A stretch of DNA of 64,000 nt from Kordiimonas pumila. GTDB lineage: Bacteria; Pseudomonadota; Alphaproteobacteria; Sphingomonadales; Kordiimonadaceae. The translations under genes and the position numbers were made by a program. Below are positions 417 through 27,981 of this stretch, piece after piece; the first letter of the stretch is position 1; each line of letters begins with the position of its first letter. Location: NCBI RefSeq assembly GCF_015240255.1, contig NZ_CP061205.1, positions 3,644,501 to 3,708,500 on the forward strand, written 5' to 3'. Under the pieces are notes generated by a model. The model was not told where the DNA came from. It saw only the letters and a program-made list of their open reading frames with translations, and made no database searches.

Positions 417-2009
417 TTAATACCCTTTCGCTTTTTTCAAAGCTGCACGTAGGCTAGGCACATCAACCTGTTTCCACCTAGCCGCAACATACTGATCAGG
501 CCTAATCAAGTAGGCACTACCCGACATAAGGTCATACCGATCGAGAACAATGCGACAATCACCTACCGCGTTATCAATATCTACAACCATAATACCTAGG
601 TCACAGTCAACCCCACCACCCTTTGTTAGAAGCACAAAACCAGCTTGAAGAAAATCGTAAAGCCAACCATTGCCTATAGGGGCATCTAGAGCTGGCGCGC
701 CGGGCTTTATTCCCTTACCTGACCAATCATCTCTATCAGGCGTGTTCAAGCTACTTTCTGGGTAGCATACAGCTGTTGATAGCCGGCCTGAATTTACCAG
801 TGGTCGCGCAAAAGCTACCTCAGAAGCAAGCTCCAGTACGGCATCCCGAAAAATCCGGCTCATTTCTGTTTTTGGTGTCATAAAATCAGTTGAACGGCTT
901 GAATTAAGGATATTTTCATCGGCCGTGATAATGGCTTCTGTATTATAACTCTCCAGCAACCCTTCACCGGCTTCACCTCGTAAAATCAGGTCCAGCTTCC
1001 AGCCAAGGTTATCAATGTCAGCAAGGCCGCCATTACAGCCTCGCGCGCCGAAAGGCGAAACCAAATGGGCACTATCGCCCGCAAAAATGATATTCCCGTG
1101 TACAAACCTACTCATACGCCGACACTGAAAAGTGTAAACACTATACCATTCTTCAGTAAATTCGATATTATCCCCAAGCATTCCTCTTACCAAGGGCTCA
1201 ACATTTTCTGGTTTCATGGCCTCCTGACGGTCAATATTCCAACCAAGTTGAAAATCAAGGCGCCACACATCATCAGGCTGCTTGTGTAGCAATGCTGACT
1301 GCCCTGGATTAAAAGGTGGGTCAAACCAAAACCACCTCTCCGGCGGGTGGTTTCCAGTCATCTTTATATCTGATATCAGAAAGTTATCTTCAAAAACTCT
1401 TCCATCAAAATCAAGCCCAAGCGCAGTGCGAACGAGCGAGCGACTACCATCACAAGCAATTAACCATTCTGTCTTCACTGAATACGCGTAATCACCTGCT
1501 TGAACCTCAAGCTGTACATACCCTTCCTGTTGCTCCACGCCCACAACCCCGTGCCCCCACCGCACTGTTATGTTAGGGTTACGGCAGACAGCTTCATAGA
1601 GATACTCTTCAACATAATACTGTTGAATATTAATAAATGCTGGCCGTTTCTGGTCTTTCACCGGCAACAAATCAAACTGGTAAATCGCGTCAGCCCTATC
1701 GCCCCAAAAGACTTTTCCAACATTCCATATCACGCCCTTTTCAACCATTTTATCCCCAACACCAAGCCGGTCAAAAATATCGAGTGAGCGCTTTGAAAAG
1801 CAGATTGCTTTCGAGCCTGCTGCTATAAAATCAAACAGCGTAAGAACCAGCACCTTGTGACCCCGCTGAGCAAGATCAAGAGCTGCAGCAAGGCCAACAG
1901 GACCTGCTCCCACAATCACCACCCTAGCATCTTCGACACCTGTGGCCATTAAAGGCAGCGGTGTTTGGCCAATTTCCCGCCAAACGGGAATCCCGGAAAC
2001 ATTCGCCAT
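417..2009 (-). CDS. FAD-dependent aromatic ring hydroxylase, MhpA/PheA type
   Basis: A class A flavoprotein monooxygenase of about 530 residues, expected to hydroxylate a phenolic ring using NAD(P)H and oxygen in the cytoplasm. The FAD-binding GAGPVG lies at residues 34-39, the CDGSR motif at 186-190 and the second FAD motif GDSAH at 311-315. The start at 2009 is preferred because AGGA precedes it at normal spacing and it follows the upstream gene's stop by 4 bases; an upstream in-frame ATG at 2048 would lie inside that gene. It is co-transcribed with the MBL-fold gene upstream and the DUF2783 gene downstream. The substrate is unknown; 3-hydroxyphenylpropionate-type compounds are only the nearest named precedent. 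Confidence 0.85.
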   Translation of the reverse strand: MANVSGIPVWREIGQTPLPLMATGVEDARVVIVGAGPVGLAAALDLAQRGHKVLVLTLFDFIAAGSKAICFSKRSLDIFDRLGVGDKMVEKGVIWNVGKVFWGDRADAIYQFDLLPVKDQKRPAFINIQQYYVEEYLYEAVCRNPNITVRWGHGVVGVEQQEGYVQLEVQAGDYAYSVKTEWLIACDGSRSLVRTALGLDFDGRVFEDNFLISDIKMTGNHPPERWFWFDPPFNPGQSALLHKQPDDVWRLDFQLGWNIDRQEAMKPENVEPLVRGMLGDNIEFTEEWYSVYTFQCRRMSRFVHGNIIFAGDSAHLVSPFGARGCNGGLADIDNLGWKLDLILRGEAGEGLLESYNTEAIITADENILNSSRSTDFMTPKTEMSRIFRDAVLELASEVAFARPLVNSGRLSTAVCYPESSLNTPDRDDWSGKGIKPGAPALDAPIGNGWLYDFLQAGFVLLTKGGGVDCDLGIMVVDIDNAVGDCRIVLDRYDLMSGSAYLIRPDQYVAARWKQVDVPSLRAALKKAKGY

Positions 2010-2013
2010 TGTC

Positions 2014-2973
2014 TTAGTCCTGCAACTGTGCCCAAACTTCCCGGTCACGTTCCATTGTCCAGATGCGCGGCCAGTCTATACCGTCAAACTCATCCCACAG
2101 GCGTTGCACATTAAAAGGCAGACAATGTTCAAAAATAGGCCAGTGACCAAACTTCGGCGCAAGAGCCTTGTGCGTTGCTTCAAAAGCCTCTTTCAAGGTG
2201 CCACCCCGTTTGTGCACTGCACCAACATTGTCAATCATACCATTCAAAAAGCCTCGCGTTTGTTCGATCGCAGCATCACAGGCGTCAACACCAATTGCAA
2301 CGGCACCCCGGCCACCAACCAGTTTTTCTGCCCTAAAGGATTTTACCTTATCGAGGGTGCCTTCGCTCCAGTCCATATGGAAGGCGTCCCCCGTGTAAAG
2401 GGCTGCCTGTGCCTCCACCAAGTCACCTGCAAACAGGGTTTTTGATCTATCGTGGTAGACAGCAATATCTCCAGCCGTATGTCCACGCCCACAAAACTGC
2501 AGATCAAGGATCCCATAGTTACCGCCTAGCTCAATCGTCATATGGTCATCAAAAGTAATATTGGGCCGCGTAAGACCCGGAATACCTTCTGGCTCCTTAA
2601 ATAGGCGTGGCATACGGCCAAACTCACTATCCCAATCTTCTTTACCGCGTTCTTCGATCAGTTTTTTGGTTACAGAAGATGTGATAATTGTCTCTGCCCC
2701 AAAAGCGCTGGCGCCCAGCACGCGCACAGCGTGGTAATGTGTCAAAATAAGGTATTTTATGGGTTTATCCGTATGCACCCGCAGCTTCTTAAGCCAGTCG
2801 CCAGCCGCCGCAGGTGTCGCCCGCGCTTCTATGCAAACCAGAAAGTCCTCACCTTCAATGGCACCTACATTCGGGTCCCCCTCAGCGGTGAGTGCATAAA
2901 CACCCTTATCAAGGACTTCGAGTGTTTCTTTTTTTTCTGTTAGGTCAGTAGATGATGCAAATGGCTTTGACAT
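2014..2973 (-). CDS. MBL-fold metallo-hydrolase with degenerate metal motif
   Basis: A metallo-beta-lactamase-fold protein of 319 residues, first gene of the minus-strand hydroxylase operon. The canonical HxHxDH metal motif reads HYHAVR at residues 79-84, so both histidines of the first site remain but the Asp and third His are lost. The downstream ligands are still plausible: GRGHTAGD with H165 and FAGD with D184. This suggests a single-metal site or altered chemistry, for example ester, lactone or thioester hydrolysis. The start at 2973 is supported by an AGGAG ribosome site; an extended start at 3027 lacks one. Linkage to the ring hydroxylase implies a role in the same pathway. Confidence 0.8.
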   Translation of the reverse strand: MSKPFASSTDLTEKKETLEVLDKGVYALTAEGDPNVGAIEGEDFLVCIEARATPAAAGDWLKKLRVHTDKPIKYLILTHYHAVRVLGASAFGAETIITSSVTKKLIEERGKEDWDSEFGRMPRLFKEPEGIPGLTRPNITFDDHMTIELGGNYGILDLQFCGRGHTAGDIAVYHDRSKTLFAGDLVEAQAALYTGDAFHMDWSEGTLDKVKSFRAEKLVGGRGAVAIGVDACDAAIEQTRGFLNGMIDNVGAVHKRGGTLKEAFEATHKALAPKFGHWPIFEHCLPFNVQRLWDEFDGIDWPRIWTMERDREVWAQLQD

Positions 2974-3063
2974 AAATAAGCTCCTGAATACTTTGGTTTG
3001 TAGCCACCATAAAGATGGCCCACACATATCCTTGTCATTAGTTCTAATTACATCTTTTATTTT

Positions 3064-3077
3064 GTTGATAAATCAAC
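3064..3077. promoter_or_regulatory. MarR-type operator candidate, copy 1
   Basis: The inverted repeat GTTGATAAATCAAC (6-base arms, 2-base centre) lies between the divergent MBL/hydroxylase operon and the LuxR-type gene. Close copies lie at 17521 and 22097, the last one directly upstream of the MarR-family gene. The repeat itself is seen; assigning it to that MarR protein is inference. Confidence 0.6.
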
Positions 3078-3089
3078 TAGATTGCTTGC

Positions 3090-3824
3090 ATGAAGTTTAT
3101 AAATCCAGATATTGGCCTTAGGCTGTTTGAAAAGGCAGGCACCAACCTGCTTTCTGAGGCCATGCTTGCCGCAGCCCAAACAATGATCCCTGCAAAGGAG
3201 ATATTTGCTTATAGAGCAACTGAAAGCAGTACTCCTGAGATGCTGCTATCATACGGAATGGATAGCGGCGCAGAACGACGAGCAACATCTTTTGCGGCAC
3301 ATTTCTTTATATCCGACCCTATCAGAAAAACACGGTATAACATCAAGCCTGATACGGGTTTTTATCAGCATGTGAATATTTCCCAAATCGAGCGCGGGGA
3401 TTACCGCTGGCACTGTTTTGAAAAGCCAGGCTTTACAGACAAACTTTGTTTTGGCTGGCAGCGCGGCAAGGAGAGCTTTGTCCTTACCTTTTATGTGAAA
3501 GACAAAAATGAACTTCCTTCTACACCGCTATTTGAAGCATTTGGTAATATGTGCCTAACGGTCTTGATACATCACAGAGATATCCTTGAGAAGCACGCTT
3601 GCCCTCTCGCAGACAGACTCCATTCAATTATCAATGAAAGATATCCAATGCTAACCGTGAGAGAGGCAGAAATATGTGCCCTGACCCTTGCCGGGATCAA
3701 GGCACCAGAAATTGCAAATACTCTTGGTATAAGCCCAAATACAGTTCTTACATACCGCCAGCGGGCTTATGCACGCCTTGGAATACGTTCAACAAACGAA
3801 CTGCTTGGCTCTATTATAAACTAA
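3090..3824 (+). CDS. LuxR-family transcriptional regulator
   Basis: A 244-residue regulator. The C-terminal 60 residues form a clear LuxR-type helix-turn-helix with LTVREAEICALTLAG and the recognition-helix region ISPNTVLTYRQRAYARLG. The N-terminal 180 residues occupy the place of an autoinducer-binding domain but do not show a clear set of the invariant acyl-homoserine-lactone pocket residues to my eye. No luxI-type synthase is visible in the window, so it is best read as an orphan or ligand-responsive regulator. It is transcribed divergently from the hydroxylase operon, which it may control, possibly by sensing an aromatic metabolite. Confidence 0.8.
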   Translation: MKFINPDIGLRLFEKAGTNLLSEAMLAAAQTMIPAKEIFAYRATESSTPEMLLSYGMDSGAERRATSFAAHFFISDPIRKTRYNIKPDTGFYQHVNISQIERGDYRWHCFEKPGFTDKLCFGWQRGKESFVLTFYVKDKNELPSTPLFEAFGNMCLTVLIHHRDILEKHACPLADRLHSIINERYPMLTVREAEICALTLAGIKAPEIANTLGISPNTVLTYRQRAYARLGIRSTNELLGSIIN

Positions 3825-3837
3825 GCTGCACCGAAGC

Positions 3838-5022
3838 CTAACTAATGGCAGCAATAGCCCGCGCCACATGAAGGATATTGTCTTCCGTTAATCCAGCTAT
3901 ATTTACCCGCCCTGAGCCAATGATATGAACATGGTGCTCTGAGCGCAGTTTCTCAACAGCTTCTGGGGAAATGCCAAGTAAAGCAAACATACCGCGCTGG
4001 TTTTCAAGGTAGCTATAATCACGCTTACTGCCATGCTCTGCTAATAATGTAACCAATCTTGATCGCATAGTGTTAATACGGTTGCGCATAGTACTTAGCT
4101 CCACTTCCCATTCACGGCGCAGATCTGGTGTACCCAGAATTTTTGCAACGATCGCAGCACCGTGATCAGGTGGCATGGAATAGTTTGTGCGGGCAACCGG
4201 CATCATATGGGCCCGAGCAAGCGTAACATTGTCCGTATCTCTTGCGACCAGTGTTAGGGCCCCCACACGTTCACGGTACAAGGCAAAGTTCTTCGAATAT
4301 GAACTTGCTATCACCATTTCAGGCACACATGATGCCAGTAAACGAAGGCCCTCCGCATCTTCATTTAATCCATTACCAAAGCCAAGGTAAGCAAGGTCAA
4401 CAAGCGGCAACGCACCTGTTTTCACCAGAAGGTCTGCAATTTGTTGCCACTGCTCAAGGTCAGGGTCAGCCCCGCTTGGGTTATGACAGCACCCATGTAA
4501 TAAAAGAACATCACCTTCTTTCATACCCTTGAGGGATGTCATCATCGCATCAAAAGTGAGCTCACCAGAAGCGACATCATAGTAAGAATACGGCACCAGT
4601 TCATAACCCGCCACTGTGAAGATTGCTTTATGGTTCGTCCATGTTGGGTCAGGGATAAAAATGCGGGTCTTGCCTTGAAGTTTACGAATATAGTCTGCCG
4701 CGATCCGAAGCGCCCCTGTACCCCCCGGGGTTTGAACCGTCAGGCTACGCCCCAGCAAGTCCTTATTCGCCCCGAACAAAAGCTCTCGCGTCACAAGATT
4801 ATAATCCGGGTTACCCGCCGATGAGATATAAGCCTTGGTCGCCTGTGTCTCCAGAAGCCATTGCTCGGCTTTTTTAACTGCCTTTAAAACAGGAGCCTTG
4901 CCTGTATGATCTTTATAAATTCCAATCCCAAGATCCACCTTATCGGCGCTCTTGTCGTTCGCAAAGAGTTGAGCCAAGCTTAGAATTGGATCAGCTGGTG
5001 CTACGGACAAGTTTGTAAACAT
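3838..5022 (-). CDS. aromatic amino acid aminotransferase (class I)
   Basis: A PLP-dependent aminotransferase of 394 residues in the AspC/TyrB subgroup. It exchanges the amino group of aromatic amino acids or aspartate with 2-oxoglutarate. The family motif HGCCHNPSG spans residues 176-184 and the Schiff-base lysine is K244 in SYSKNFALYRERVGAL. The ATG at 5022 is chosen because AAGGA sits 7 bases before it; the ATG two codons upstream would almost abut that ribosome site. In this context it probably deaminates an aromatic amino acid released by the neighbouring hydrolases. An operator-like 16-mer lies just upstream at 5038-5053. Confidence 0.88.
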   Translation of the reverse strand: MFTNLSVAPADPILSLAQLFANDKSADKVDLGIGIYKDHTGKAPVLKAVKKAEQWLLETQATKAYISSAGNPDYNLVTRELLFGANKDLLGRSLTVQTPGGTGALRIAADYIRKLQGKTRIFIPDPTWTNHKAIFTVAGYELVPYSYYDVASGELTFDAMMTSLKGMKEGDVLLLHGCCHNPSGADPDLEQWQQIADLLVKTGALPLVDLAYLGFGNGLNEDAEGLRLLASCVPEMVIASSYSKNFALYRERVGALTLVARDTDNVTLARAHMMPVARTNYSMPPDHGAAIVAKILGTPDLRREWEVELSTMRNRINTMRSRLVTLLAEHGSKRDYSYLENQRGMFALLGISPEAVEKLRSEHHVHIIGSGRVNIAGLTEDNILHVARAIAAIS

Positions 5023-5037
5023 TACCATTTCCTTTTT

Positions 5038-5053
5038 GTTACGTATTACGATA
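5038..5053. promoter_or_regulatory. operator-like 16-mer, family 1 copy A (IclR candidate)
   Basis: The sequence GTTACGTATTACGATA lies immediately upstream of the aminotransferase ribosome site and within the divergent aminotransferase/MFS promoter region. It belongs to a set with consensus GTWACRYAWTAYGAKA, with other copies at 8949, 15369 and 16436. The copy upstream of the first IclR gene suggests that regulator as the binder (inference). Confidence 0.55.
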
Positions 5054-5165: not shown

Positions 5166-6434
5166 ATGACGACAGACGCGGCAGGGGCCTTAAGGCAAAG
5201 AAACAGCGATGCTAACTGGAATGTAGCCTGCGCTTTTATTATATTTTTCTCTGTCCTTGGTATCCCCGCGATGATGATCCCGGTTCTATACGAATCGATC
5301 ATTAATGACACAGGCTGGTCACGCGGCGATGTTGCGATGTTTAGCTCGTTAAAGTTCGGCTTTGGAGCAATTGCCGCTTATTTAACGGGGCCGCTTGTTG
5401 AGCGTTTTGGTGTAAGAATCCTTACCATACTCTGTTCTATACTTGCAGGTTTGTGCCTGCTTTCCATGCTTTTAGTTAACAGCCTCGCGTTTCTCTATTT
5501 ACTGGGTATTCTTCTGGGCTTTAGCGCACTCGGCGTAACGACAGGCATGAAGATATTTATATCGCAGTGGTTTTCTGCCCGCCAAGGCCTCGCCATAGGC
5601 ATAAGCCTTATGGGGACAAGCTGCGCAGGCGTTGCTATACCTTACGTTACAACCATTTTATCTGAAGCTTATGGTTGGCGCGCCACATGTGCGCTCATGA
5701 GCCTTGTCATATGGTGTATTGCCCTGCCTCTTTTCATCACCAAGGCGAAAGAATTAAATGGTGAGCAGAAACAGCAAGCCAAAACAGAAATGGCGGCACA
5801 GCCTTCTAGTGTGCCTGCATTCAGTGAAATACGTTTTGGTCGAGCCTTTATTTTTGCCATCATTATCAATTTTTTAATCGGCATGGTAGACCACGGGATG
5901 TCTGCACATCTGGTTATTTATTTCAGCTCTGATGTTGGGTTAGGCGCAGAAATGGCGGCCCTAGGGTTTTCACTTGTGATGCTTCTCAGCAATGTTGGCA
6001 AGATAGGGTATGGCTGGCTCTATGACCGCTTCTCTATTAAAGGAATGGCCTTTTGCTGGTGTGTGGTTATCGTTGGTGTTGCTATGGCTTTCCCTGTTAC
6101 GGGTATAACAAGCCTTGTCATTTTCGCCCTTATTTACGGCCCTACTCAAGGTGGCATGCTTGTTAACATTCCCGTTCTTGCAAAACATTGTTTTGGACCA
6201 AAGGCAATGATCAGGGCAATTGCCGTTTTATCTACCTTCTTTATGCTTGGTAGCGCTGTTGGACCAGCCCTTGCAGGCTACCTGCACGACGCAACGGGAA
6301 GTTACGATTCTACTTTTATCATCTTTATTGTCGCAACATTAGTTGCAGCCTGCATGACTTTATCACTCAAACCAGTTTTCTTCATAAAAAAGAACGAAAA
6401 AACGAGTACGGCTACAGTTCCCAAGGAAGGCTAA
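5166..6434 (+). CDS. MFS transporter, oxalate/monocarboxylate-like
   Basis: A 12-helix inner-membrane major facilitator protein of 422 residues, most like the oxalate:formate antiporter/monocarboxylate group. It has regularly spaced hydrophobic segments, a hydrophilic central loop near residues 195-220 (rich in K, E, Q, A) and the cytoplasmic loop motif YDRFSIKG after helix 8. It is divergent from the aminotransferase and precedes the DJ-1/dipeptidase/RidA genes on the same strand. Probably imports an organic or aromatic acid related to this island. Substrate and direction cannot be read from sequence. Confidence 0.82.
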   Translation: MTTDAAGALRQRNSDANWNVACAFIIFFSVLGIPAMMIPVLYESIINDTGWSRGDVAMFSSLKFGFGAIAAYLTGPLVERFGVRILTILCSILAGLCLLSMLLVNSLAFLYLLGILLGFSALGVTTGMKIFISQWFSARQGLAIGISLMGTSCAGVAIPYVTTILSEAYGWRATCALMSLVIWCIALPLFITKAKELNGEQKQQAKTEMAAQPSSVPAFSEIRFGRAFIFAIIINFLIGMVDHGMSAHLVIYFSSDVGLGAEMAALGFSLVMLLSNVGKIGYGWLYDRFSIKGMAFCWCVVIVGVAMAFPVTGITSLVIFALIYGPTQGGMLVNIPVLAKHCFGPKAMIRAIAVLSTFFMLGSAVGPALAGYLHDATGSYDSTFIIFIVATLVAACMTLSLKPVFFIKKNEKTSTATVPKEG

Positions 6435-6479: not shown

Positions 6480-7301
6480 ATGAACCGTAGAACATTTAAT
6501 CGTCTTATTGGGCTTTCTGCTATTGCAGGCGCAGTGTCTAACACCGGTATCGCAGATACTGGTGCTGTTGCAGAAACGCGTAAAACCGCATCAGGATCAA
6601 CCACGATGACAAAGCCGGAACAGCCGTTCAAAATTGGCATGCTAATTTTCAACAATATGACCAATCTTGATTTTGTTGGGCCTTGCGACATGCTGTCCCG
6701 TGTGCGTGAAGCCGAAGTTACGATACTGGGTAAAACTCTCGAACCCGTTCTCACAGACTCTGGCTGTTTAGTCATCCCTAAAATGACCCTTAAAGACGCC
6801 CCACAATTTGATATGCTTTTTGTGGGAGGTGGCCCCGGCACAACGGCATTGATGGAGGATGAGGAAGTAATCGGCTTTTTCAAAAAACAAGCGCCGGGCG
6901 CAAAGTGGATTACAGCTGTTTGTACCGGAACACTTGTTCTTGGTGCAGCGGGCCTTTTTAAAGGCTACAAGGCAGCAACACACTGGACCGTAATGGATCT
7001 GTTACCCATTCTCGGTGCAACACCGGTTTACGAACGGGTTGTTATTGACCGTAACCGTATTTCAGGTGGCGGCGTGACCGCAGGCATAGATTTTGCCCTA
7101 ACCGTTATTGCAGAGTTGTGGGGCACCGAACGCGCACAGCTGATCCAATTAGGGAATGAATATAACCCGCAACCGCCCTTTAATTCAGGCTCCCCGTTTA
7201 CTGCCCCCAAAGCTATTGTTGATAAATATAATAGCCTAACAAAAGGCATGACAACAAGGCGCAAGGAAGCTGCTGAACGCATGGCAAAAATGTTAGGGTA
7301 A
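6480..7301 (+). CDS. exported DJ-1/PfpI protein, isonitrile hydratase-like (copy 1)
   Basis: A 273-residue DJ-1/PfpI-superfamily protein closely resembling isonitrile hydratase, which adds water to R-NC to give an N-formamide. The candidate nucleophile is C148 in AVCTGTLVLGAAGL and the candidate catalytic Asp is D64 in NLDFVGP. The subfamily tail ending PPFNSGSP is present. Unlike the known cytoplasmic enzyme it starts with MNRRTFNRLIGLSAIAGAV, a twin-arginine-type signal, predicting a folded periplasmic enzyme. It heads a tight cluster with the M19 dipeptidase (3 bases downstream) and RidA. A second copy lies at 12067. Isonitrile hydration is a family-based inference; other DJ-1 activities are possible. 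Confidence 0.8.
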   Translation: MNRRTFNRLIGLSAIAGAVSNTGIADTGAVAETRKTASGSTTMTKPEQPFKIGMLIFNNMTNLDFVGPCDMLSRVREAEVTILGKTLEPVLTDSGCLVIPKMTLKDAPQFDMLFVGGGPGTTALMEDEEVIGFFKKQAPGAKWITAVCTGTLVLGAAGLFKGYKAATHWTVMDLLPILGATPVYERVVIDRNRISGGGVTAGIDFALTVIAELWGTERAQLIQLGNEYNPQPPFNSGSPFTAPKAIVDKYNSLTKGMTTRRKEAAERMAKMLG

Positions 7302-8429: not shown

Positions 8430-8840
8430 ATGACACATATTCCCCATACAAAATCAGATGATGGCGGTATTTTATTTTTCCCAAGCACACGGCCCGGTTC
8501 TCCCTTCTCAAGGGCTGTACAGGTTGGCAATATTCTGTACCTCTCTGGCCAAATTGGTAATAATCCTGACGGCACCCTGCCAGATAGCCTTGCCGACCAA
8601 ACTCGTAATACCATGACGAACATTTCCAATGCCCTTGCCTCTCTTGGCTCCAACATGGAACAAATATTCAAATGCACCATCATGATGGAAGACATGACAC
8701 GCTGGAAAGAATTCAATGCTGTTTATCTGGAGTTTTTTGACGCTGAGAAACTACCGGCACGCAGTGCCTTTGGTGCAAGTGGTCTTGTTGCTGGTGCCCT
8801 TCTGGAAATTGAGTGCTGCGCTTATGCTCCACAAACCTAG
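8430..8840 (+). CDS. RidA family enamine/imine deaminase (copy 1)
   Basis: A 136-residue YjgF/RidA/UK114-type trimer-forming protein. Family members hydrolyse 2-aminoacrylate and related enamines to 2-oxo acids, and some, such as 2-aminomuconate deaminase, act in aromatic pathways. It has the LYLSGQIGNNPDG strand-turn, and the substrate-carboxylate arginine is expected in LPARSAFGASGL, followed by the acidic LEIECCAYAP end. It is the last gene of the DJ-1/M19/RidA unit. Here it may process an enamine produced during deamination. A general stress role is the alternative. Confidence 0.85.
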   Translation: MTHIPHTKSDDGGILFFPSTRPGSPFSRAVQVGNILYLSGQIGNNPDGTLPDSLADQTRNTMTNISNALASLGSNMEQIFKCTIMMEDMTRWKEFNAVYLEFFDAEKLPARSAFGASGLVAGALLEIECCAYAPQT

Positions 8841-8948: not shown

Positions 8949-8964
8949 TCTCGTAATATGTTAC
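8949..8964. promoter_or_regulatory. operator-like 16-mer, family 1 copy B (IclR candidate)
   Basis: On the minus strand this reads GTAACATATTACGAGA and matches the copies at 5038, 15369 and 16436. It lies 107 bases upstream of the thiamine-diphosphate enzyme start, in the 230-base gap after the RidA gene. Confidence 0.5.
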
Positions 8965-9070
8965 AAATTATCCATACATTGCTCTCAATACTTGGGAGTA
9001 TGGGTGTCGCGTTATACGGTTATTCAGACTTTTCTGCGACATTTGGACAAACGCAAGGAAATAGGCAAAG

Positions 9071-17503: not shown

Positions 17504-17520
17504 TTTAGCCCTCCTAATTA

Positions 17521-18567: not shown

Positions 18568-18572
18568 CATCG

Positions 18573-19982: not shown

Positions 19983-20000
19983 GGCTTTCATGCCCTTTCA

Positions 20001-20987: not shown

Positions 20988-21009
20988 GCTAGTACTCCTC
21001 ACTAAAGGA

Positions 21010-21049: not shown

Positions 21050-22012
21050 TTATTTCTCAAGATTCACGCGGTTAGACAGCCGGCCAAGACCTTCCACTTC
21101 TACATCAGTGAGCTTGCCGTCATATAGACCCAGATATGTACCAACATTCCCACGCGGGTGCTTTTCGGTACCTTTGGAAGCCGTCCCTGTATGAATGCAA
21201 TCGCCCAGCTCCATAGTGAACCATTTGGTCGCCTCAGAGATCACGCGCTCTACAGGAAAGAAATAGTTAGCTGTGCTATCTTCTGTATAACATTCACCGT
21301 CAATGTATCCGCGGACCTTCAGCTTATTTGGATCTTTCACTTCGTCCTTAGTCGTAATCCACGGCCCCATAGAGGCAAACGTGTCTGCTCCTTTGGATTT
21401 GGCATGATAGATAAAGTATAAATATGTATCATCATCGCCGAATTTTTCACGCCATGCCGTATGGTGCGGCTTCACCAGATCCGGTGTTTGCTTCAGAGCA
21501 ATAGCATCTTGGCTAAACTTAACGCCGCTCGCTGTTACATCATTAGTCAGAGTGTAGCCAAACACGTAATCAAGAGCATCTTCTGGCGCTACATTCTTCG
21601 CGCGTTTGCCAAATATAACAACAGGTTCTGGCTCTGGGATTGACTGGCCGTGATCCTTTAAAATATCAATTGTTTTATTATGCCCAGTAAGTGCTGACCG
21701 GCCTTTAATAAAAAACATAGGCGCCGTCATAGGCTTATAAGCTTTGCTGTTCAGGTTATTGTTATTTACTGCACACCCAAGAATTTTTGAAGGCTTGGGG
21801 TTAGGTGCCATCCAGTCAGCTCCGGCAAGATCAATAACAGGAAGCGTGCCCGCTTTCGCTTTCACAATAGCCTCTGCTGCTGAATCAAGGCCGGCAGAGC
21901 CTGCTTCGATCAAATCTTCCATCCATGTATAGGGAACAGCAACTGCCGTATCATCTGTTACTCTGGCAATTACAGTAGGACGTCCGTCCAGCATAATGGT
22001 TCCTAGTTTCAC
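21050..22012 (-). CDS. fumarylacetoacetate hydrolase (FAH) family protein 2
   Basis: A FAH-family protein of about 320 residues, probably a hydratase, isomerase or hydrolase for an open-chain product of ring cleavage. KILGCAVNNNN, the metal-binding EPEPVVIFGKRA and VFGYTLTNDVTASG are clear. The GTG start at 22012 (MKLGTIMLDGRP) is preferred because AGGA lies about 7 bases before it; the ATG at 22030 has no good site. It is divergent from the MarR gene, with an operator candidate between them. It heads the FAH 2/amidohydrolase/aldehyde dehydrogenase unit. It has only loose similarity to FAH 1, so the two likely act on different intermediates. Confidence 0.8.
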   Translation of the reverse strand: MKLGTIMLDGRPTVIARVTDDTAVAVPYTWMEDLIEAGSAGLDSAAEAIVKAKAGTLPVIDLAGADWMAPNPKPSKILGCAVNNNNLNSKAYKPMTAPMFFIKGRSALTGHNKTIDILKDHGQSIPEPEPVVIFGKRAKNVAPEDALDYVFGYTLTNDVTASGVKFSQDAIALKQTPDLVKPHHTAWREKFGDDDTYLYFIYHAKSKGADTFASMGPWITTKDEVKDPNKLKVRGYIDGECYTEDSTANYFFPVERVISEATKWFTMELGDCIHTGTASKGTEKHPRGNVGTYLGLYDGKLTDVEVEGLGRLSNRVNLEK

Positions 22013-22096
22013 GAAAGTATCCTTTCTCATTTGGCCGGAGGAGCCGCGTTTCACATACGACGCGTTTCTAATCCGAAGTTTCACAAGCGGTATTCT

Positions 22097-22110
22097 GTTG
22101 ACTCATCAAC
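22097..22110. promoter_or_regulatory. MarR-type operator candidate, copy 3
   Basis: GTTGACTCATCAAC, with exact 6-base inverted arms, sits 66 bases upstream of the MarR gene and 85 bases upstream of the divergent FAH 2 start. This position is typical for an autoregulating MarR repressor. Confidence 0.65.
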
Positions 22111-22175
22111 TTTATTCATGTTTTTTGCCCTCACCCACGCATCTCCTAACCAGCTACAGCGGAGCCAAAAGATTT

Positions 22176-22628
22176 ATGAACAAGAAACGCCCTACGGCAG
22201 ATATGGAAAAATTTCTCTCTTATCGGTTGAGTATTATTTCCAGACTTATAAATCGCCGCTCCACGAGGTATTTTAATGAGAACTACGGTCTGACCCTCGC
22301 CGAATGGCGCGCACTCGCACAAATTGCTGCAGGCAAAATGAACACGGTGAAAGCAATTTCCGAACAAACCTTTTCTGACAAAGGCCTGATCAGCAGAGCT
22401 ATTACCAGCCTTGAAAAGAAAGGACTTATTGAAGGCACACCAAACCCAAAAGATAAACGCAGTATGGAATACAAACTGAGCGCAGTAGGTATTAGCATTC
22501 ACGACGAAATCATGCCCATGCGCATGGAAGAAAACGCCCTGATTGCCGAAATCATGACCCCGGAAGAGCTTGAGCTTTTCAAAGACGTATTGGCTCGCAT
22601 TCAAGGTCATCTTAATGCTCTCGACTAA
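22176..22628 (+). CDS. MarR-family transcriptional regulator
   Basis: A 150-residue winged-helix regulator. The SIISRLINRRSTRYF dimer helix, the GLTLAEWRALAQIAAG segment, the recognition helix in SDKGLISRAITSLEKKGLI and the wing with PNPKDKRSMEYKLS are all recognisable. The ATG at 22176, with GGAG 11 bases upstream, is chosen; the open frame continues upstream but crosses the operator and divergent promoter. It probably represses FAH 2 and, judging from shared operators, the dioxygenase/FAH 1 and hydroxylase promoters, with an aromatic ligand as inducer. Its stop codon overlaps that of the convergent Rieske gene. Confidence 0.85.
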   Translation: MNKKRPTADMEKFLSYRLSIISRLINRRSTRYFNENYGLTLAEWRALAQIAAGKMNTVKAISEQTFSDKGLISRAITSLEKKGLIEGTPNPKDKRSMEYKLSAVGISIHDEIMPMRMEENALIAEIMTPEELELFKDVLARIQGHLNALD

Positions 22629-23908
22629 ATCGTTTCTGACGCATTTTCATCAATCATGCCCATTGCAATCTGGTATTCCCGTTTAATCTCCTCGGGCTGG
22701 CCCACCTGATGCTGATAATCAGGCTCATTCAAGCGGTACGATAAAGCCTTGGCCAGCGCCCTGCTCTCATCAAGAGACATAGACTGCGTAAATAGTTCAC
22801 GGTGCTTGATAGGAAGCTCAACGCATGCATTTTTCTTAGAATCCCTGATCAACCCTTTTGGGTCTTGACCATCGCTTACAAGCTGCATGTTTTTTTCATA
22901 ACAGCGACGCATCATCACAATGCCCAAGTCACTTTGACCTAAATGCTCTTCGGTACGATCAGCAATTGTACCTTGCCCGACCCATGCAACAATATCCTGA
23001 TTCATAACGTGGCTTGTAATCCAGCGGCCCGCGCCATCCTTAACCGGGCCCTTCCAGTAAGGCACCCGCTGTTGCACATAAGGCTCTCTGTCTACCGGCA
23101 CACGGTGAAACATCCATGTAACACTTAAGGTGTTCTCATCATCGACAGGAATGCGCCACTCAATATGATCACCCAGAAAAAAAGCATGCGGCCAAAGTGC
23201 CGTTGCGCCAATTGTCCAGTGCTCATTGCTTTTATCAGTATCTTCCCGCACACGCCGATAGATGTGGCCATACTCAAATTCTTCAAACTTAAGCTCCAGA
23301 TGAGTAGGCCCATATTCACCGCTTCCTGACAACCGAGAGGACCAGTTCCTGTGCATCCATTCAAAATGAACGGGGTCACAGCTGTTTTCCTGACACTGGA
23401 ACCAGTTGCACGGAATATCCGCAAACACCACCTGCCTGAAACCATTACCCCATGTAAACGGCTCCCAGTTTGGCACTAGCGGCGCAGGGTCCGGCCCCAT
23501 ATAGATCCAAAGCATTCCAGCTTTTTCTTCAACCTTATATGACTTGATCGTAATTTTATCCCGGAAGCGAGCTTTTGGATTAGCTATATCCTCATAGGGT
23601 TGCTCAATACACTTGCCGGTAGGGCCGTAGCACCAGCCATGATAGCTACAGCGCAAGCCATCTTCTTCAACAATGCCGTAAAGCATATCCGCACGCCGGT
23701 GTGGGCACTGCCTGTCAACAATACCGTATTCACCTTTACCACTTTTAAAAAGCACCAAGTCTTCGCACAGTAAGCGCACAGCCTTAATAGGGTTTTCCTC
23801 AAGCTCGGCAACCGCTGCAATAGGGTGCCAATAGCGCCGCAACATATTCCCCATCGGGGTATTAGGCCCAACCTTCGTAAACCGTTCATTTTGTGCGGCA
23901 CTAACCAT
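22625..23908 (-). CDS. Rieske non-heme iron oxygenase, alpha subunit
   Basis: A 427-residue terminal oxygenase. The Rieske cluster ligands are C68, H70, C87 and H90 (CPH and CSYH). The catalytic iron site is in DPVHFEWMH with H181 and H186. Length and layout match single-component alpha subunits of the phthalate dioxygenase/vanillate demethylase type. Likely reactions are ring hydroxylation or O/N-demethylation. No ferredoxin or reductase gene lies nearby, so electrons must come from elsewhere. It is divergent from IclR 2, with two inverted-repeat sites in the gap, and its stop overlaps the MarR stop by 4 bases. Confidence 0.86.
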   Translation of the reverse strand: MVSAAQNERFTKVGPNTPMGNMLRRYWHPIAAVAELEENPIKAVRLLCEDLVLFKSGKGEYGIVDRQCPHRRADMLYGIVEEDGLRCSYHGWCYGPTGKCIEQPYEDIANPKARFRDKITIKSYKVEEKAGMLWIYMGPDPAPLVPNWEPFTWGNGFRQVVFADIPCNWFQCQENSCDPVHFEWMHRNWSSRLSGSGEYGPTHLELKFEEFEYGHIYRRVREDTDKSNEHWTIGATALWPHAFFLGDHIEWRIPVDDENTLSVTWMFHRVPVDREPYVQQRVPYWKGPVKDGAGRWITSHVMNQDIVAWVGQGTIADRTEEHLGQSDLGIVMMRRCYEKNMQLVSDGQDPKGLIRDSKKNACVELPIKHRELFTQSMSLDESRALAKALSYRLNEPDYQHQVGQPEEIKREYQIAMGMIDENASETI

Positions 23909-23971
23909 CGCTTATAAAAACTCCTTAGCACGTATCAAAACCAGTTCTTGCCCTTGCTAGGTAAAAAAAAT

Positions 23972-23987
23972 GTTTACATAACGCAAC
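23972..23987. promoter_or_regulatory. IclR 2 operator candidate, copy 1
   Basis: GTTTACATAACGCAAC is an imperfect inverted repeat in the 131-base gap between the Rieske gene and IclR 2. It resembles the site at 24002 in the opposite orientation (shared GTT-TC...GCAAC half sites). Confidence 0.5.
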
Positions 23988-24001
23988 AAATCAATATAAA
24001 A

Positions 24002-24018
24002 GTTGCATATAACGAAAC
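24002..24018. promoter_or_regulatory. IclR 2 operator candidate, copy 2
   Basis: GTTGCATATAACGAAAC lies 22 bases before the IclR 2 start codon. It also partly matches the family 1 motif found at 5038, 8949, 15369 and 16436, as expected for related IclR regulators. Confidence 0.5.
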
Positions 24019-24039
24019 TATTAAGCGGATTAAAGCACC

Positions 24040-24849
24040 ATGAACAGGGACCCACGCCGCCGCGCACCCCAGTTAGCACCGGCAAAAATAGAAACCGTTG
24101 CCACTGCTTCTGATATAATTGATTTTCTGGCAGAAAGTGGTGAAACCGTCGGTGTGCAAAAAGTTGCCGATGCACTAAACATGACTAAGTCCCGTGCTTC
24201 AAGGCACTTGGCAAACCTTGAATCGTTAGGCCTTATTGGGCGCGTACCCGGTGCGCGCGGCTACCAGTTGGGCTGGCGCGTAATGCGCTGGGGTCAAATT
24301 GCTTCTACCCACCTTGATCTTACAAAAATTTTTGAAGGACCCCTCCAAGACCTTAATCAGCAAACAAACAAAACTGTATTGCTGTGCGCACCCGCTGGCG
24401 GCGAAGCTATTGTTACCAAATGTTTGCCCTCAAATACCGCTATTCGCATAGAGGTTAAAATTGGGCTGGTTTTAAGCCTACCGTACTCCCCAAGCGCTTG
24501 TATTTGCTATGCTTTTTTACCTCGAGAACAACGCCAAAGCATGCTGATTCACCTGAAGCAACGGGAGCAAGATTTCCGTGTAGAAAACGAAACACACTTT
24601 AACCAGCGAATTTCCGAAATACAGCAAACCTATTATAGCTGGGATAAAAATAAATATAATGTTGGCTACGGCGCAATTGCAGCACCTGTTTTTAATCAGC
24701 ATGAGGGCCTTGCGGGTACAATTACGCTTGTGCTGCCAAGCGAAGAGCTTAGTGATAAACCACCTGAGCATCTGTTAAAAAGCCTGCTTACAACTGCTGA
24801 GGAATGCTCCAGACTTTTGAAGTCGCACATCAAGTTCCCCAGTCTCTGA
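24040..24849 (+). CDS. IclR-family transcriptional regulator 2
   Basis: A 269-residue IclR protein. The helix-turn-helix includes VQKVADALNMTKSRASRHLANLESLGLI with the recognition helix at about residues 48-60, and the effector domain includes TVLLCAPAGGEAIVTK and GYGAIAAPVFNQHEG. It is divergent from the Rieske oxygenase and precedes RidA 2 by 33 bases. It likely controls the Rieske gene and its own RidA/MFS neighbours. A paralogue of the regulator at 15610, it may answer to a different intermediate of the same pathway. Confidence 0.86.
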   Translation: MNRDPRRRAPQLAPAKIETVATASDIIDFLAESGETVGVQKVADALNMTKSRASRHLANLESLGLIGRVPGARGYQLGWRVMRWGQIASTHLDLTKIFEGPLQDLNQQTNKTVLLCAPAGGEAIVTKCLPSNTAIRIEVKIGLVLSLPYSPSACICYAFLPREQRQSMLIHLKQREQDFRVENETHFNQRISEIQQTYYSWDKNKYNVGYGAIAAPVFNQHEGLAGTITLVLPSEELSDKPPEHLLKSLLTTAEECSRLLKSHIKFPSL

Positions 24850-24882
24850 TATCGAGATTTACCCGCGTTAAAGGTGCCTATA

Positions 24883-25377
24883 ATGAAAGAAACTATTACG
24901 TCGCTGGCCGCCGCAAAAGGCTACACACTACCCAAAGTGCACTATGCTAATACAGACTTCATTTTATACCGCGTAACAGGGAATTTGGTTTATATTTCAG
25001 GCATGGTAGCCCAGTTCGAGGGCAAAAGGCCTTACATTGGAAAACTTGGTAAAGATATCTCATTAGAAGACGGTATTGAAGCTGCAAAACTAAGCGCCCT
25101 TAACATCCTTTCATGGTTACGGGAAGCAGTTGGTGATGACGCTAGCAGAATTGCAAGCTGTTTAAAGCTCGGCGGCTTTGTCGCTAGCACCCCAAGCTTT
25201 ACAGACCAGTCAAAAGTTATAAGCGGCGCATCGCGTTTAATTGTTGATGTTTTTGGTGAGAAAGGCAAACACACACGCACCTCCGTGGGGGTTGCCGTTT
25301 TACCATTTGATATTAGCGTAGAAATTGAAGCAATTTTTGAGCTTCATCCGAAAGAAGATACACCAACTAAATTTTGA
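24883..25377 (+). CDS. RidA family protein (copy 2)
   Basis: A 164-residue RidA-type protein, longer than the usual 130 residues through an N-terminal extension. LVYISGMVAQFEGKRPYIG and the conserved arginine in RTSVGVAVLPFDISVEIEAIF are recognisable. AAAGG 8 bases before the ATG at 24883 fixes the start. RidA-family proteins with this longer form are often named endoribonuclease or enamine deaminase; in aromatic pathways related proteins act as 2-aminomuconate deaminase. Being downstream of IclR 2 and near the Rieske gene, a pathway role is more likely than housekeeping. Confidence 0.8.
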   Translation: MKETITSLAAAKGYTLPKVHYANTDFILYRVTGNLVYISGMVAQFEGKRPYIGKLGKDISLEDGIEAAKLSALNILSWLREAVGDDASRIASCLKLGGFVASTPSFTDQSKVISGASRLIVDVFGEKGKHTRTSVGVAVLPFDISVEIEAIFELHPKEDTPTKF

Positions 25378-25521: not shown

Positions 25522-26907
25522 ATGGCGAAGGCCAATAACAATAATCAGCAAGCTACCAAAGCTTTTCTTACAGATGGCATGCCACTGCCTCAACGCTATT
25601 TTGCTATTCTAACACTGTGTTTTGGTACCTCTTTGGTGGTGATAGATAGTTCTATTGCCTCGGTCGCTCTTCCCACTATTGCACGCGACCTTAATGTAAA
25701 AGAATCTGAAGCCGTCTTTATTGTTACCATCTATCAACTAATGCTGGTGATGTGTCTTCTCCCTCTCTCGGCCATGGCAGAGCGTATTGGCTACCGAAAA
25801 ATGTACCGCAGTGGCCTTGCTATTTTTGCCCTTGGGACAGGTCTCTGCGTGTTTGTGAACAACCTTCCTATGCTGCTCTTCCTCAGGGTACTGCAATCTA
25901 TTGGTGCCGCTGCTGTCATGAGTGTGTCTGCCGCCCTGCTGCGGCCTATATACCCCAAAGCCATGCTCGGGCGCGGCATGGCCCTAAACAGTGTTATTGT
26001 TGCAAGTTCCTCTGCTTTGGCACCTACACTTGGTGGCTATATCTTAAGTATTGCGGATTGGCCGCTTATTTTTGCTGTATCTGCACCGTTTGCAGTTCTC
26101 GGCTTAATACTGTCGCGGTTTTTACCCCCACCTAAGCGCAGAGACATTCCCTATGATACAATAAGTGCCTTGCACAGTGCGCTTACTTTTGGCCTGCTTA
26201 TTGCTGGGCTAGAGATAGCCGTTCATAGTGAATCCAAAGCTTTAGCTATCATTCTGGCGCTCAGTGGCATTACAAGCGCCGTTATGTTTGTACGGTTACA
26301 AAACAAAGCAGAAAACCCAATTTTGCCGGTCGACCTGCTTAGCAAGCCTTTGTTTTCTTTTTCAATATCAGGGGCCTTTCTTGCCTTCACAGCCAGCATG
26401 ATGCTCATCGTGCTTATTCCTTTTATGCTGGAAAAGCGCTATGCTTTTAATCCTGGTGAAATAGGAACAATTTTAGCGGCATGGCCCCTTACAGCCGTTA
26501 TTGCAGCCCCCCTGGCAGGCATATTGTCGGATCGGTTTAACCCTGCAATATTGGGCACCCTTGGAACAGCAGTTGCTGTTTTGGGATTAGCCGCCCTTTA
26601 TACCCTGCCGGTTGACCCACTAAAAACTGATATAGCATGGAGACTTGCCTTCTGCGGCGGTGGATTTAGCATGTTTTTAGCCCCTAACGCCCGGCTCATT
26701 ATTGGTAATGCACCGCCAGAGCGTGTAGCACCGGTGGGCGGCCTTATTGCTACAACACGCCTAAGCGGTCAAACTTTTGGCGCGTCTCTTGCTGCAGCCC
26801 TTCTTGCAAACAGCATGGGAATAGGCAAAGAAGCAATCCTTCTTCCCATAACTCTCACAGTTCTTGCTGGGCTTTGTAGCGCAAGCAGGCTTTGGATCAG
26901 AGAATAA
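25522..26907 (+). CDS. MFS transporter, DHA2 (EmrB/QacA) family
   Basis: A 461-residue inner-membrane transporter with about 14 predicted helices. The first helix carries the DHA2-type VVIDSSIASVALPTIARDL signature, followed by the MAERIGYRKMYRSG loop. The family exports hydrophobic or organic-anion compounds with proton antiport, though some import. It follows RidA 2 by 144 bases with no terminator recognised. It may relieve toxicity of aromatic intermediates or move an end product. No periplasmic-adaptor partner is present, as would be expected for a tripartite pump. Confidence 0.82.
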   Translation: MAKANNNNQQATKAFLTDGMPLPQRYFAILTLCFGTSLVVIDSSIASVALPTIARDLNVKESEAVFIVTIYQLMLVMCLLPLSAMAERIGYRKMYRSGLAIFALGTGLCVFVNNLPMLLFLRVLQSIGAAAVMSVSAALLRPIYPKAMLGRGMALNSVIVASSSALAPTLGGYILSIADWPLIFAVSAPFAVLGLILSRFLPPPKRRDIPYDTISALHSALTFGLLIAGLEIAVHSESKALAIILALSGITSAVMFVRLQNKAENPILPVDLLSKPLFSFSISGAFLAFTASMMLIVLIPFMLEKRYAFNPGEIGTILAAWPLTAVIAAPLAGILSDRFNPAILGTLGTAVAVLGLAALYTLPVDPLKTDIAWRLAFCGGGFSMFLAPNARLIIGNAPPERVAPVGGLIATTRLSGQTFGASLAAALLANSMGIGKEAILLPITLTVLAGLCSASRLWIRE

Positions 26908-26961
26908 AGCCTGCGCCTTCAGCGTGGTTATTTCATCTTCCATCCCCCAAATGATCGCTTT

Positions 26962-27981
26962 CTAATACGCAAGAGGTGTCTCTGCCCCCAAGATAACTTC
27001 AAGAATGTAAGGGATTGTTTGCTCAGCATAGGTCCTGTTTAGGATCAGGCTCATATGATCCGCTTCTTTGATAATAGCGCGCTTGCTATTTGTGGATAGC
27101 CCTTCCATTTCTGTGTGAAGCGACATTAGTTTTTGAGTTATAGTCTCAGAATCAAGCTCTTCGGGCCAATCTTCTGCATTTTGCGCTGTTCCCGCACTTA
27201 TAAGTGTAAAAGGTATGTCACCAAGCGTCTTGTTACGGTCCGCTTGCAAAGCGGCTAAATCAAAATCACGAAATTCAGCAAGGAAGGCATCATAGGTGGT
27301 AACGCGCTTACTTATATAAGCTAACTGTCGCTGTATTTCTGCAGGGTATTCAAGGATTAGATTATAGTCCCGCCCGGCTTCCGTAGGGTTATACAGTTCC
27401 GTAATGCCCCATTTTATCATAGACTGCAGCGTATGTATCTGGTTCGCCAGCGCCGGATAAAACTTCTTGTTATCAATATTCAGCACCTCTCCCTGCCTTG
27501 GGTGGCTTGGATCAAGGAGCACAAGACCAGATACTTCACCCGGATAACGCTCAATATAATCACGGTTGTAAAGGCCCGCGATGGAATGCCCCACAAACAC
27601 AAAAGGCCGCTTAATACCCGCTTTATTTAATAAAGTATGAAGAGCTTCGTTCACTGTTTTTGAATCACGCGGCAAACCGCTCTCCTCGCTCCAGCCAAGG
27701 CCCGCACGGTCATATGAGCAGACCTTTGTTGTTGCTGAAACGCCTTTTTGGATCCAGTAAAAAAGCGGCAACGCCTCACCTGAGCCCGTTTCAATAACAA
27801 CGGTGGGCAAACCAGTGTCTGCGCCTGTACAGTGTATGTGAAGCTTATAACCACCCACATCAACCATTTGCCCAGGGGGTGGTACTTCGTCATTAAAGCT
27901 TTTAAGGATGAGGCCCACTAAGAGCGGCGCTGCCGACAGCGTTATGATGGTCACAGCCAGTATTTTAAATAATTTTTTCAT
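26962..27981 (-). CDS. alpha/beta hydrolase with N-terminal membrane anchor or signal
   Basis: A 339-residue alpha/beta-hydrolase. The nucleophile is S133 in VFVGHSIAGLYNRD and a late EADHMSLI provides the histidine. YDRAGLGWSE is the usual oxyanion-region strand. The first 28 residues are a hydrophobic signal or anchor (KKLFKILAVTIITLSAAP), suggesting action outside the cytoplasm. It lies downstream of the STN-type receptor on the same strand, 87 bases away, and may hydrolyse the compound that receptor recognises, though a hairpin separates them. Family activity could be esterase, lipase or haloalkane type. Confidence 0.75.
   Translation of the reverse strand: MKKLFKILAVTIITLSAAPLLVGLILKSFNDEVPPPGQMVDVGGYKLHIHCTGADTGLPTVVIETGSGEALPLFYWIQKGVSATTKVCSYDRAGLGWSEESGLPRDSKTVNEALHTLLNKAGIKRPFVFVGHSIAGLYNRDYIERYPGEVSGLVLLDPSHPRQGEVLNIDNKKFYPALANQIHTLQSMIKWGITELYNPTEAGRDYNLILEYPAEIQRQLAYISKRVTTYDAFLAEFRDFDLAALQADRNKTLGDIPFTLISAGTAQNAEDWPEELDSETITQKLMSLHTEMEGLSTNSKRAIIKEADHMSLILNRTYAEQTIPYILEVILGAETPLAY

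Follow-up and report, generated by a model that had tools for sequence, protein, structure and literature searches.

The 64,000-nucleotide stretch of Kordiimonas pumila DNA introduced above (bases 3644501-3708500 of a genome of 4.04 Mb in a single contig; G+C about 47%), referred to here in its whole length as the window, probably holds a real, rare and co-regulated set of catabolic genes that act on an aromatic amino-acid derivative. The explanation that we prefer, with a probability of about 0.58, is that a horizontally acquired, co-regulated island degrades an aromatic amino acid that is N-blocked (acylated, formylated or peptide-like). Gene content, a conserved gene arrangement and shared promoter motifs are what we observed, and from them we infer every reaction, the order of reactions, the substrate and the pairing of regulators with motifs. 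This explanation is supported by a 16-gene arrangement shared with a Niveispirillum genome (locus L017), by the numbers of sites for two promoter motifs, A and B, and by parallel clusters on an Aminobacter plasmid (L045) and at a further locus (L048).

Profile searches, with scores compared to family cut-offs, confirmed that the enzymes named in the initial annotation are all encoded by intact open reading frames, each with a family match. That annotation had placed the island at positions 417-27981; most of its genes form one unit, but its right-hand limit was too wide, and the conserved unit stops near the second RidA gene (25377). Two FAA-hydrolase-family genes are to be added to its enzymes, and regulators of the LuxR, MarR and (twice) IclR types make the set complete. 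The genes of the conserved unit are the following, with protein identities to their counterparts in L017, in its neighbour L027 or in L045.

3838-5028, minus strand: aromatic amino-acid aminotransferase (AroAT; NF006719, 528 bits, cut-off 377; 64% in L027, 61% in L045)
5166-6434, plus strand: MFS transporter (MFS1; PF07690; 62% in L017)
9071-10741, plus strand: thiamine diphosphate (ThDP) enzyme, proposed arylpyruvate decarboxylase (PRK08266, 728 bits, cut-off 571; 74% in L017)
10698-11933, plus strand: ArgE-type M20 deacylase (TIGR01892, 389 bits, cut-off 298; 62% in L017)
12067-12978, minus strand: exported InhA-like DJ-1 protein (InhA2; 3.3e-64 to 3ewn, 4.2e-53 to InhA; twin-arginine leader; 51% in L017)
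13045-15246, minus strand: TonB-dependent receptor (TonB1; named by its sequence and by similarity to Pfam-confirmed receptors; 61% in L017, in the same place)
15610-16362, minus strand: IclR regulator (IclR1), proposed reader of motif A (81% in L017, 70% in L045; motif A in all three)
16478-17533, minus strand: LigB-type extradiol dioxygenase (PF02900, 66.7 bits against a Pfam cut-off of 26.3; 71% in L017)
17569-18567, plus strand: FAA-hydrolase-family enzyme (FAH1; PF01557, 2.3e-55; 70% in L017)
18573-19991, minus strand: aldehyde dehydrogenase (ALDH; PF00171; 67% in L017, 71% in L045)
20001-21002, minus strand: ACMSD-like amidohydrolase/decarboxylase (Amidohydro_2; 3.3e-40 to ACMSD, its nearest solved structures)
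21050-22084, minus strand: FAA-hydrolase-family enzyme (FAH2; PF01557; 85% in L017)
22176-22628, plus strand: MarR-type regulator, proposed reader of motif B (60% in L017; called MarR by reading the sequence, without a family search; the start at 22176 was chosen in this analysis, and the longest frame begins at 21996)
22625-23908, minus strand: Rieske oxygenase, phthalate-dioxygenase type (PF00355, PF19301; PDB 7fhr, 1.8e-45; 79% in L017)
24040-24849, plus strand: second IclR-type regulator (IclR2; 63% in L017; 32% to IclR1)
24874-25377, plus strand: RidA-family protein (RidA2, YjgF_endoribonc; PF14588; 50% in L017, where it lies between the ThDP enzyme and MFS1)

A long minus-strand frame opposite FAH1 (17530-18570) was rejected as a gene in favor of FAH1; its codon-position G+C pattern is unlike that of the other genes.

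A scan of 84,980 species genomes with exact peptide patterns of the LigB protein, which miss diverged copies, returned one relative, 71% identical, in the metagenome-assembled genome (MAG) Niveispirillum sp. Gw_Bodden_bin_248. Around this gene, in L017, lie counterparts of 16 of the 25 window proteins tested, namely those listed above, at 50-85% identity; the AroAT gene of this copy is completed in L027, which adjoins L017 and with L028 forms its flanks. Order and relative orientations of the shared genes are equal in the two genomes except for the moved RidA2, and InhA2 likewise lies behind TonB1. Linkage elsewhere of InhA-like, ArgE-like, RidA, LigB and ACMSD-like genes, for which the initial annotation had suggested a search, is therefore found, as L017 holds InhA2, ArgE, RidA2, LigB and the ACMSD-like gene together. 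Because 16 of 25 genes are arranged alike in L017, and because the promoter motifs described below exceed their controls, the grouping is more than chance. Other LigB homologues (289 class and 147 order genomes) were 30-41% identical over most of their length, and the unit occurred in none of the 20 neighborhoods compared; among these, L048 has aminotransferase, ThDP, LigB and ALDH types in common with the window. IclR1 was unmatched at E 1e-45 and 1e-40 in 384 other genomes of the class and 397 others of the phylum, two overlapping samples in which the best 6-7 candidates per genome were scored.

Within the genus, an orthologue of the ThDP enzyme was found in none of the 18 other genomes, which yielded one 48% relative (L069). 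A DNA query covering 24.0-43.9 kb met genus-wide similarity that starts at a tRNA-Val gene (33564) and extends rightwards; to the left of it, one species matched a hydrolase/TonB2/sigma/FecR gene set and a few matched short pieces. Since those 18 genomes lack the ThDP orthologue, genus-wide similarity in this query lies only to the right of tRNA-Val, and IclR1 is unmatched in the genomes sampled, the island appears to have been acquired horizontally. The relatives come from two genera of alphaproteobacteria, Niveispirillum and Aminobacter.

Shared promoter motifs suggest how the unit may be controlled. In 23 intergenic stretches (11 from the window and 12 from L017, some with gene ends), the best 15-mer (at most 3 mismatches) occurred in 6 and the best 18-mer (at most 4 mismatches) in 7, compared with maxima of 4 and 3 in 15 shuffles, 5 and 4 in 25 draws of random stretches, and 4 and 4 in 17 other intergenic stretches of the window. 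Motif A, of 15 bp, has the pattern TCGTAATAYGTTACA and lies in the AroAT/MFS1, ThDP, TonB1 and IclR1 promoter regions; motif B, with the pattern WGTTGAYTNATCAACW, lies between a LuxR-type regulator gene and a metallo-beta-lactamase-fold (MBL) hydrolase gene that leads into an FAD hydroxylase gene, and in the LigB/FAH1 and FAH2/MarR gaps. The sites in the window are as follows.

5037-5051, minus strand: motif A, divergent AroAT/MFS1 promoter region (1 mismatch)
8951-8965, plus strand: motif A before the ThDP enzyme (0 mismatches)
15368-15382, minus strand: motif A before TonB1, weak (3 mismatches; a similar site precedes TonB1 of L017 at 12052)
16438-16452, plus strand: motif A before IclR1 (1 mismatch)
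3063-3078, no strand assigned: motif B between LuxR and MBL (0 mismatches)
17520-17535, no strand assigned: motif B, LigB/FAH1 (1 mismatch; L017 site at 9974)
22096-22111, no strand assigned: motif B, FAH2/MarR (0 mismatches; L017 site at 5361, 3 mismatches)

In the whole genome, motif A has three sites at one mismatch or fewer, all in the island, and two more, elsewhere, at two mismatches; at three mismatches the genome-wide count is swamped (102 sites, compared with 205 for a backward control). L017 contains three sites, before TonB1, ThDP and MFS1/AroAT (0.13 expected; reached by 0 of 100 shuffles), and the two sites of the Aminobacter locus both fall between AroAT and ThDP (0.15 expected; a count of 2 was reached by 2 of 100 shuffles). 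Three of the four distinct genome-wide sites for motif B with at most one mismatch are in the island, and at two mismatches the count is 69, compared with 13 in the backward control. A near form of motif B has five matches at three places in the window, where 1.59 were expected, and occupies two places in L017, FAH1/LigB and MarR/FAH2. These placements suggest that IclR1 reads motif A and the MarR protein motif B; IclR1 would then control the upper genes, and the MarR protein the ring genes. What had been a list of enzymes may in this way be treated as a proposed regulon whose operators can be tested, with a hypothesis on the order of the steps. No 12-base stretch was common to the Rieske/IclR2 gaps of the window and L017; the gap in the window (23909-24039) has a GCAAC-N14-GTTGC inverted repeat, and a similar repeat in L017 has a spacer one base longer.

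In the pathway that we propose, TonB1 would import the N-blocked aromatic amino acid, an exported DJ-1 protein would process it in the periplasm, and MFS1, whose top NCBIfam matches are monocarboxylate and oxalate/formate types under their cut-offs, would carry it inward. ArgE may then free the amino group by N-deacylation, after which AroAT would yield an arylpyruvate by transamination, the ThDP enzyme would decarboxylate this to an arylacetaldehyde, and ALDH would oxidize the aldehyde to an arylacetate. The Rieske oxygenase, perhaps with the FAD hydroxylase, could produce a ring with adjacent hydroxyls for opening by the LigB-type enzyme; the ACMSD-like enzyme would decarboxylate or cleave the product, and FAH2 and FAH1 would provide the last steps.

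Conversion of aromatic amino acids to arylacetates by transamination, decarboxylation and oxidation is known from the Ehrlich-type trio and from the anaerobic phenylalanine route of Aromatoleum. Genes for an aminotransferase, a ThDP enzyme and an ALDH are linked in the window, L017, L045, L048 and L069; L043 and L044, which were chosen since matches already showed an aminotransferase beside a ThDP enzyme and so are not independent, have no ALDH match. Unlike the classical trio, the genes in the window stand together with those for an N-deacylase and an exported DJ-1 protein and with the Rieske/LigB ring genes, and the ThDP enzyme belongs to the PRK08266 branch. On the Aminobacter plasmid pANY103a (L045), relatives of IclR1 (70%), ALDH (71%), AroAT (61%), the ThDP enzyme (42%), LigB (39%) and the Rieske protein (33%) lie within about 24 kb, and the ALDH gene adjoins genes annotated hpaI, hpaH, FAH, hpaD, hpaE, isomerase and hpaR; relatives of IclR, ALDH and LigB also occur on five more Aminobacter plasmids. 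L048 encodes an aminotransferase, a ThDP enzyme above the PRK08266 cut-off, LigB, HpaB above its cut-off, and an ALDH closest to the phenylacetaldehyde dehydrogenase StyD, below cut-off. Since L045, L048 and L069 join aminotransferase, ThDP and ALDH genes, the first two with hpa genes or HpaB, the comparison supports a common funnel from aromatic amino acid through arylpyruvate and arylacetaldehyde to arylacetate, followed by ring hydroxylation that differs between clusters. This suggests that an arylacetate funnel is re-used with different ring chemistries. The related aromatic amino-acid-type cluster of pANY103a (L045, L063) was also seen to combine RraA-family genes with LigB, Rieske and hpa genes.

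The lower part of the proposed pathway resembles the hpa (homoprotocatechuate) meta-cleavage pathway in its arylacetate entry, in the position of the Aminobacter ALDH relative beside hpa genes, and in the distant resemblance of FAH1 and FAH2 to an Aminobacter HpaG-type protein (35% and 24%). It differs in that HpaE, HpaF, HpaH and HpaI were not recognized in the unit and in its extra ACMSD-like enzyme. A plain homoprotocatechuate assignment was rejected on these missing genes and on the equivalog scores, as both FAH proteins fell below HpaG (107 and 108 against 276 bits) and ALDH below HpaE (352 against 638). A further parallel in enzyme types is the opa cluster of Pseudomonas sp. PTH10, for which the available portion of the published account describes meta cleavage of 2,3-dihydroxybenzoate by way of a ring-hydroxylating oxygenase, an extradiol dioxygenase, the ACMSD-like decarboxylase OpaD and a semialdehyde dehydrogenase; in contrast to the LigB-type protein of the window, OpaC is similar to the type I extradiol enzyme DhbA, and that portion names no amino-acid side-chain genes (PMC6362003). 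Among the literature matches listed, drawn from a search that mostly leaves out subscription journals, no title or abstract opening describes the gene set of the window.

Two of the ring enzymes are variants with apparently altered active sites. The LigB-like protein keeps, in alignment, the first His, the Glu and the catalytic His; the position of the second iron His is Gln in 14 of 15 aligned sequences, including that of the window, and His in the canonical-looking L042. The window protein has a His one place beyond this Gln, and by alignment alone lacks the full 2-His-1-carboxylate iron triad, which we take to be His12, His61 and Glu242 in LigB. In the ACMSD-like protein, the metal-site residues (HxH, His174, His224 and Asp291, presumably in human numbering) are kept in alignment. 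However, the carboxylate gatekeeper Arg51 (human Arg47) is replaced by Met, and the Trp194 region is altered, in both the window and L017; an aligned Arg is present for Arg239 (human Arg235), which comes from the neighboring subunit. According to the accessible part of a study of ACMSD, Arg51 and Arg239 bind the substrate carboxylates (PMC11650718). Because Arg51 is replaced, the substrate of the ACMSD-like enzyme should differ from that of ACMSD. The Rieske protein, of the phthalate-dioxygenase type with a LigXa-like C-terminal match, could alternatively be an O-demethylase, and ALDH could act in the upper or the lower part of the pathway.

Several observations weigh against the pathway and regulon that we prefer. 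The ALDH gene belongs to the operon of ring genes, and its product could instead oxidize a semialdehyde from ring cleavage; ArgE scores above the cut-off for acetylornithine deacetylase and may have that role alone; HpaE-, HpaF- and aldolase-type genes were not recognized in the unit, so that the lower route is incomplete or encoded elsewhere; and the best solved relative of InhA2 is not InhA but 3ewn, an uncharacterized ThiJ/PfpI protein. The Niveispirillum MAG is a 7.5-Mb bin that may be mixed. Regarding the motifs, the margin over controls is small at 15 bases, though clear at 18, and motif A within the 64-kb window alone is not above chance (four found and 2.66 expected, a count reached by 28 of 100 shuffles). 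Moreover, the patterns were derived from sites later counted, those of L017 included, leaving L045 as the sole fully separate test.

The genes of the island beyond the conserved unit are the following.

215-415, minus strand: DUF2783 protein (PF10932, 3.7e-23), directly after the FAD hydroxylase
417-2048, minus strand: FAD-dependent aromatic hydroxylase, PRK08132 subfamily (715 bits, cut-off 416)
2014-3027, minus strand: MBL-fold hydrolase (PF00753), overlapping the FAD hydroxylase gene
3090-3824, plus strand: LuxR-type regulator (GerE domain)
6480-7301, plus strand: exported isonitrile-hydratase-like DJ-1 protein (InhA1), a local addition (2.7e-59 to InhA; twin-arginine leader)
7305-8405, plus strand: M19 dipeptidase-like protein, a local addition (PF01244; nearest solved structure the dipeptidase GliJ)
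8430-8840, plus strand: RidA-family protein (RidA1), a local addition (PF01042)
25522-26907, plus strand: MFS transporter (MFS2), outside the conserved unit (unmatched in L017, L027 and L028)

No counterpart of the FAD hydroxylase, MBL, LuxR, M19, RidA1, MFS2 or an alpha/beta hydrolase was found in L017 or in the flanking L027 and L028, where InhA1 and TonB2, a second receptor, have only 25-29% relatives. For M19 the whole Niveispirillum MAG was covered, the best result being a 33% partial match; the other eight unshared proteins were compared with L017, L027 and L028. The motif B site at 3063 is the sole tie of the FAD hydroxylase to the unit. Beside the Niveispirillum unit (L027:5935-12942) we observed a second set of genes, which encode a class III aminotransferase, an APH-family kinase, an ALDH 66% identical to that of the window and a further DJ-1 protein that has a Tat-type leader, together with a frame that reads as MFS-like.

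InhA1 and InhA2 are DJ-1/PfpI proteins of the InhA type with, as judged by eye, Tat-type twin-arginine leaders, that of InhA2 following a longer N-terminus. The initial annotation had counted two exported DJ-1 proteins in the island; both are present with such leaders, and InhA2 alone belongs to the conserved unit. The catalytic residues of isonitrile hydratase are, as we understand it, Asp17, Cys101 and Thr102. InhA1, whose best solved relative is InhA, keeps the Asp and Cys-Thr in alignment; the printed alignment of InhA2 is to 3ewn, and the same residues were judged by its LDLVGP and VCTGS motifs, which are those of InhA. The Cys is the nucleophile of isonitrile hydratase according to the available part of one paper (PMC10971408). 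Both proteins are similar to the characterized enzyme and are candidates for isonitrile hydration; they differ from it in being exported and tied to TonB receptor genes, and InhA2, for which InhA is the second-best group, is nearer 3ewn. To our knowledge, the natural substrates of the InhA-like/DJ-1 family are mostly unknown. Because proteins matching InhA2 are common (39 of 385 class genomes sampled, including that of the window), the InhA-like name in itself carries little information.

InhA2 lies 66 bp behind TonB1, and outside the window a TonB receptor gene occurs at most 4 kb upstream, on the same strand, of five of six exported InhA-like genes but of none of the 20 unexported genes compared (Fisher p 9e-5). 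The five loci are L106-L109 and L111 (G499, G039, G280, G267, G478); the pairs in the window (12067-15246) and L017 gave rise to the idea and are outside the count. Seven of 30 InhA2-like loci were judged exported by eye, the seventh being the window itself, and 20 of the 23 others entered the comparison; a scripted leader pattern flagged 6 of the 30, one doubtful, and missed L077 and L078. The 4-kb limit was our choice. The receptor profile was built without the tested loci and gave counts equal to those of a run whose queries partly came from them. Since the receptor gene accompanies exported proteins and not unexported ones, the exported enzymes are likely to act in the periplasm on TonB cargo, and the link points to a periplasmic role for the InhA-like/DJ-1 family. 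The periplasmic step of the initial annotation thereby gains partial support.

An unlikely variation, which builds on the initial annotation, is that the TonB receptor imports a tyrosine- or tryptophan-derived isonitrile, possibly as a copper complex, which the InhA-like protein hydrates to a formamide for deformylation by ArgE, after which the route is the same. The retained Asp and Cys-Thr of InhA1, the motifs of InhA2, its position behind a receptor gene whose promoter has a weak motif A, and the bias of receptor genes toward exported proteins would all fit. PCuAC and PepSY genes are found at L106 and L107, with SCO1 at L106, where the PepSY gene lies between the receptor and DJ-1 genes. 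Isonitriles are known copper binders, and isonitrile copper chelators exist, as the accessible portions of two papers describe (PMC10971408, PMC10792529), which makes an isonitrile cargo more plausible as a guess; the pair near copper genes is possibly a metallophore opener in the periplasm. However, InhA-like proteins are common, InhA2 is closer to 3ewn than to InhA, and copper genes were not recognized in the unit. The exported proteins of L077, L078, L079 and L105 have, following the leader, a linker with His and Met residues (HDMS..P..W-like in L077-L079 and looser in L105) that is absent from InhA2. We find it more doubtful still that the island consumes an isonitrile-bearing aromatic amino-acid derivative with a dedicated periplasmic hydratase that disarms the TonB-delivered isonitrile and frees any metal, the formamide being then deformylated and catabolized. 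If true, the pairing of receptor and exported hydratase, beside copper genes in two other genomes, would be an unrecognized way to open isonitrile metallophores. What L017, motif A and the parallel clusters support in the initial annotation is that the genes are linked in one catabolic unit whose substrate is probably derived from an aromatic amino acid. Its isonitrile substrate is hypothetical, and the 39 of 385 genomes and the nearness of InhA2 to 3ewn both speak against it.

A variant 3-hydroxyanthranilate/2-aminophenol meta-cleavage pathway seems to us improbable. It would act on an amino-bearing ring, with LigB replacing the cupin dioxygenase, ACMSD decarboxylating, ALDH oxidizing, RidA deaminating, and the FAH pair serving as decarboxylase and hydratase. 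An annotated kynurenine-type cluster of Diaphorobacter (L047) does combine genes of these kinds, for 3-hydroxyanthranilate dioxygenase, ALDH and an amidohydrolase and for a pair each of RidA and FAH proteins; its kynU lies at a distance of 12 kb. However, neither of its FAH proteins is matched by any window protein at E 1e-3, the identities are 29% for ACMSD, 33% for ALDH and 28-30% for RidA, Arg51 and Trp194 of ACMSD are replaced in the window, and no kynureninase-type gene was recognized in the unit. The plain kynurenine/3-hydroxyanthranilate assignment was rejected on scores and missing genes. Equally improbable is a chance juxtaposition of unrelated catabolic modules in a variable region, for although matches left of the tRNA-Val gene at 33564 are scattered in the 24-44 kb query, the 18 other genomes of the genus lack the ThDP orthologue, and the FAD hydroxylase-MBL, M19-InhA1-RidA1 and TonB2 genes are not in the L017 cluster, 16 genes keep their arrangement across genera and have motifs in common.

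To the right of the conserved unit, alpha/beta hydrolase, TonB2, sigma factor and FecR-like genes (26962-32606) jointly match one other species of the genus (G335:C4:226064-231287) and so look like a separate module. At the left edge, the FAD hydroxylase, MBL-fold and DUF2783 genes are contiguous, and an FAH gene follows 186 bases further on the same strand, past the edge of the window (L070 18831-19529, Pfam match). The DNA left of the window (L070, G000:C1:3625000-3644900) also contains further genes that look catabolic, by reading of the translations carotenoid-oxygenase-, acyl-CoA ligase-, thiolase-, amidohydrolase- and X-Pro dipeptidyl-peptidase-like genes.

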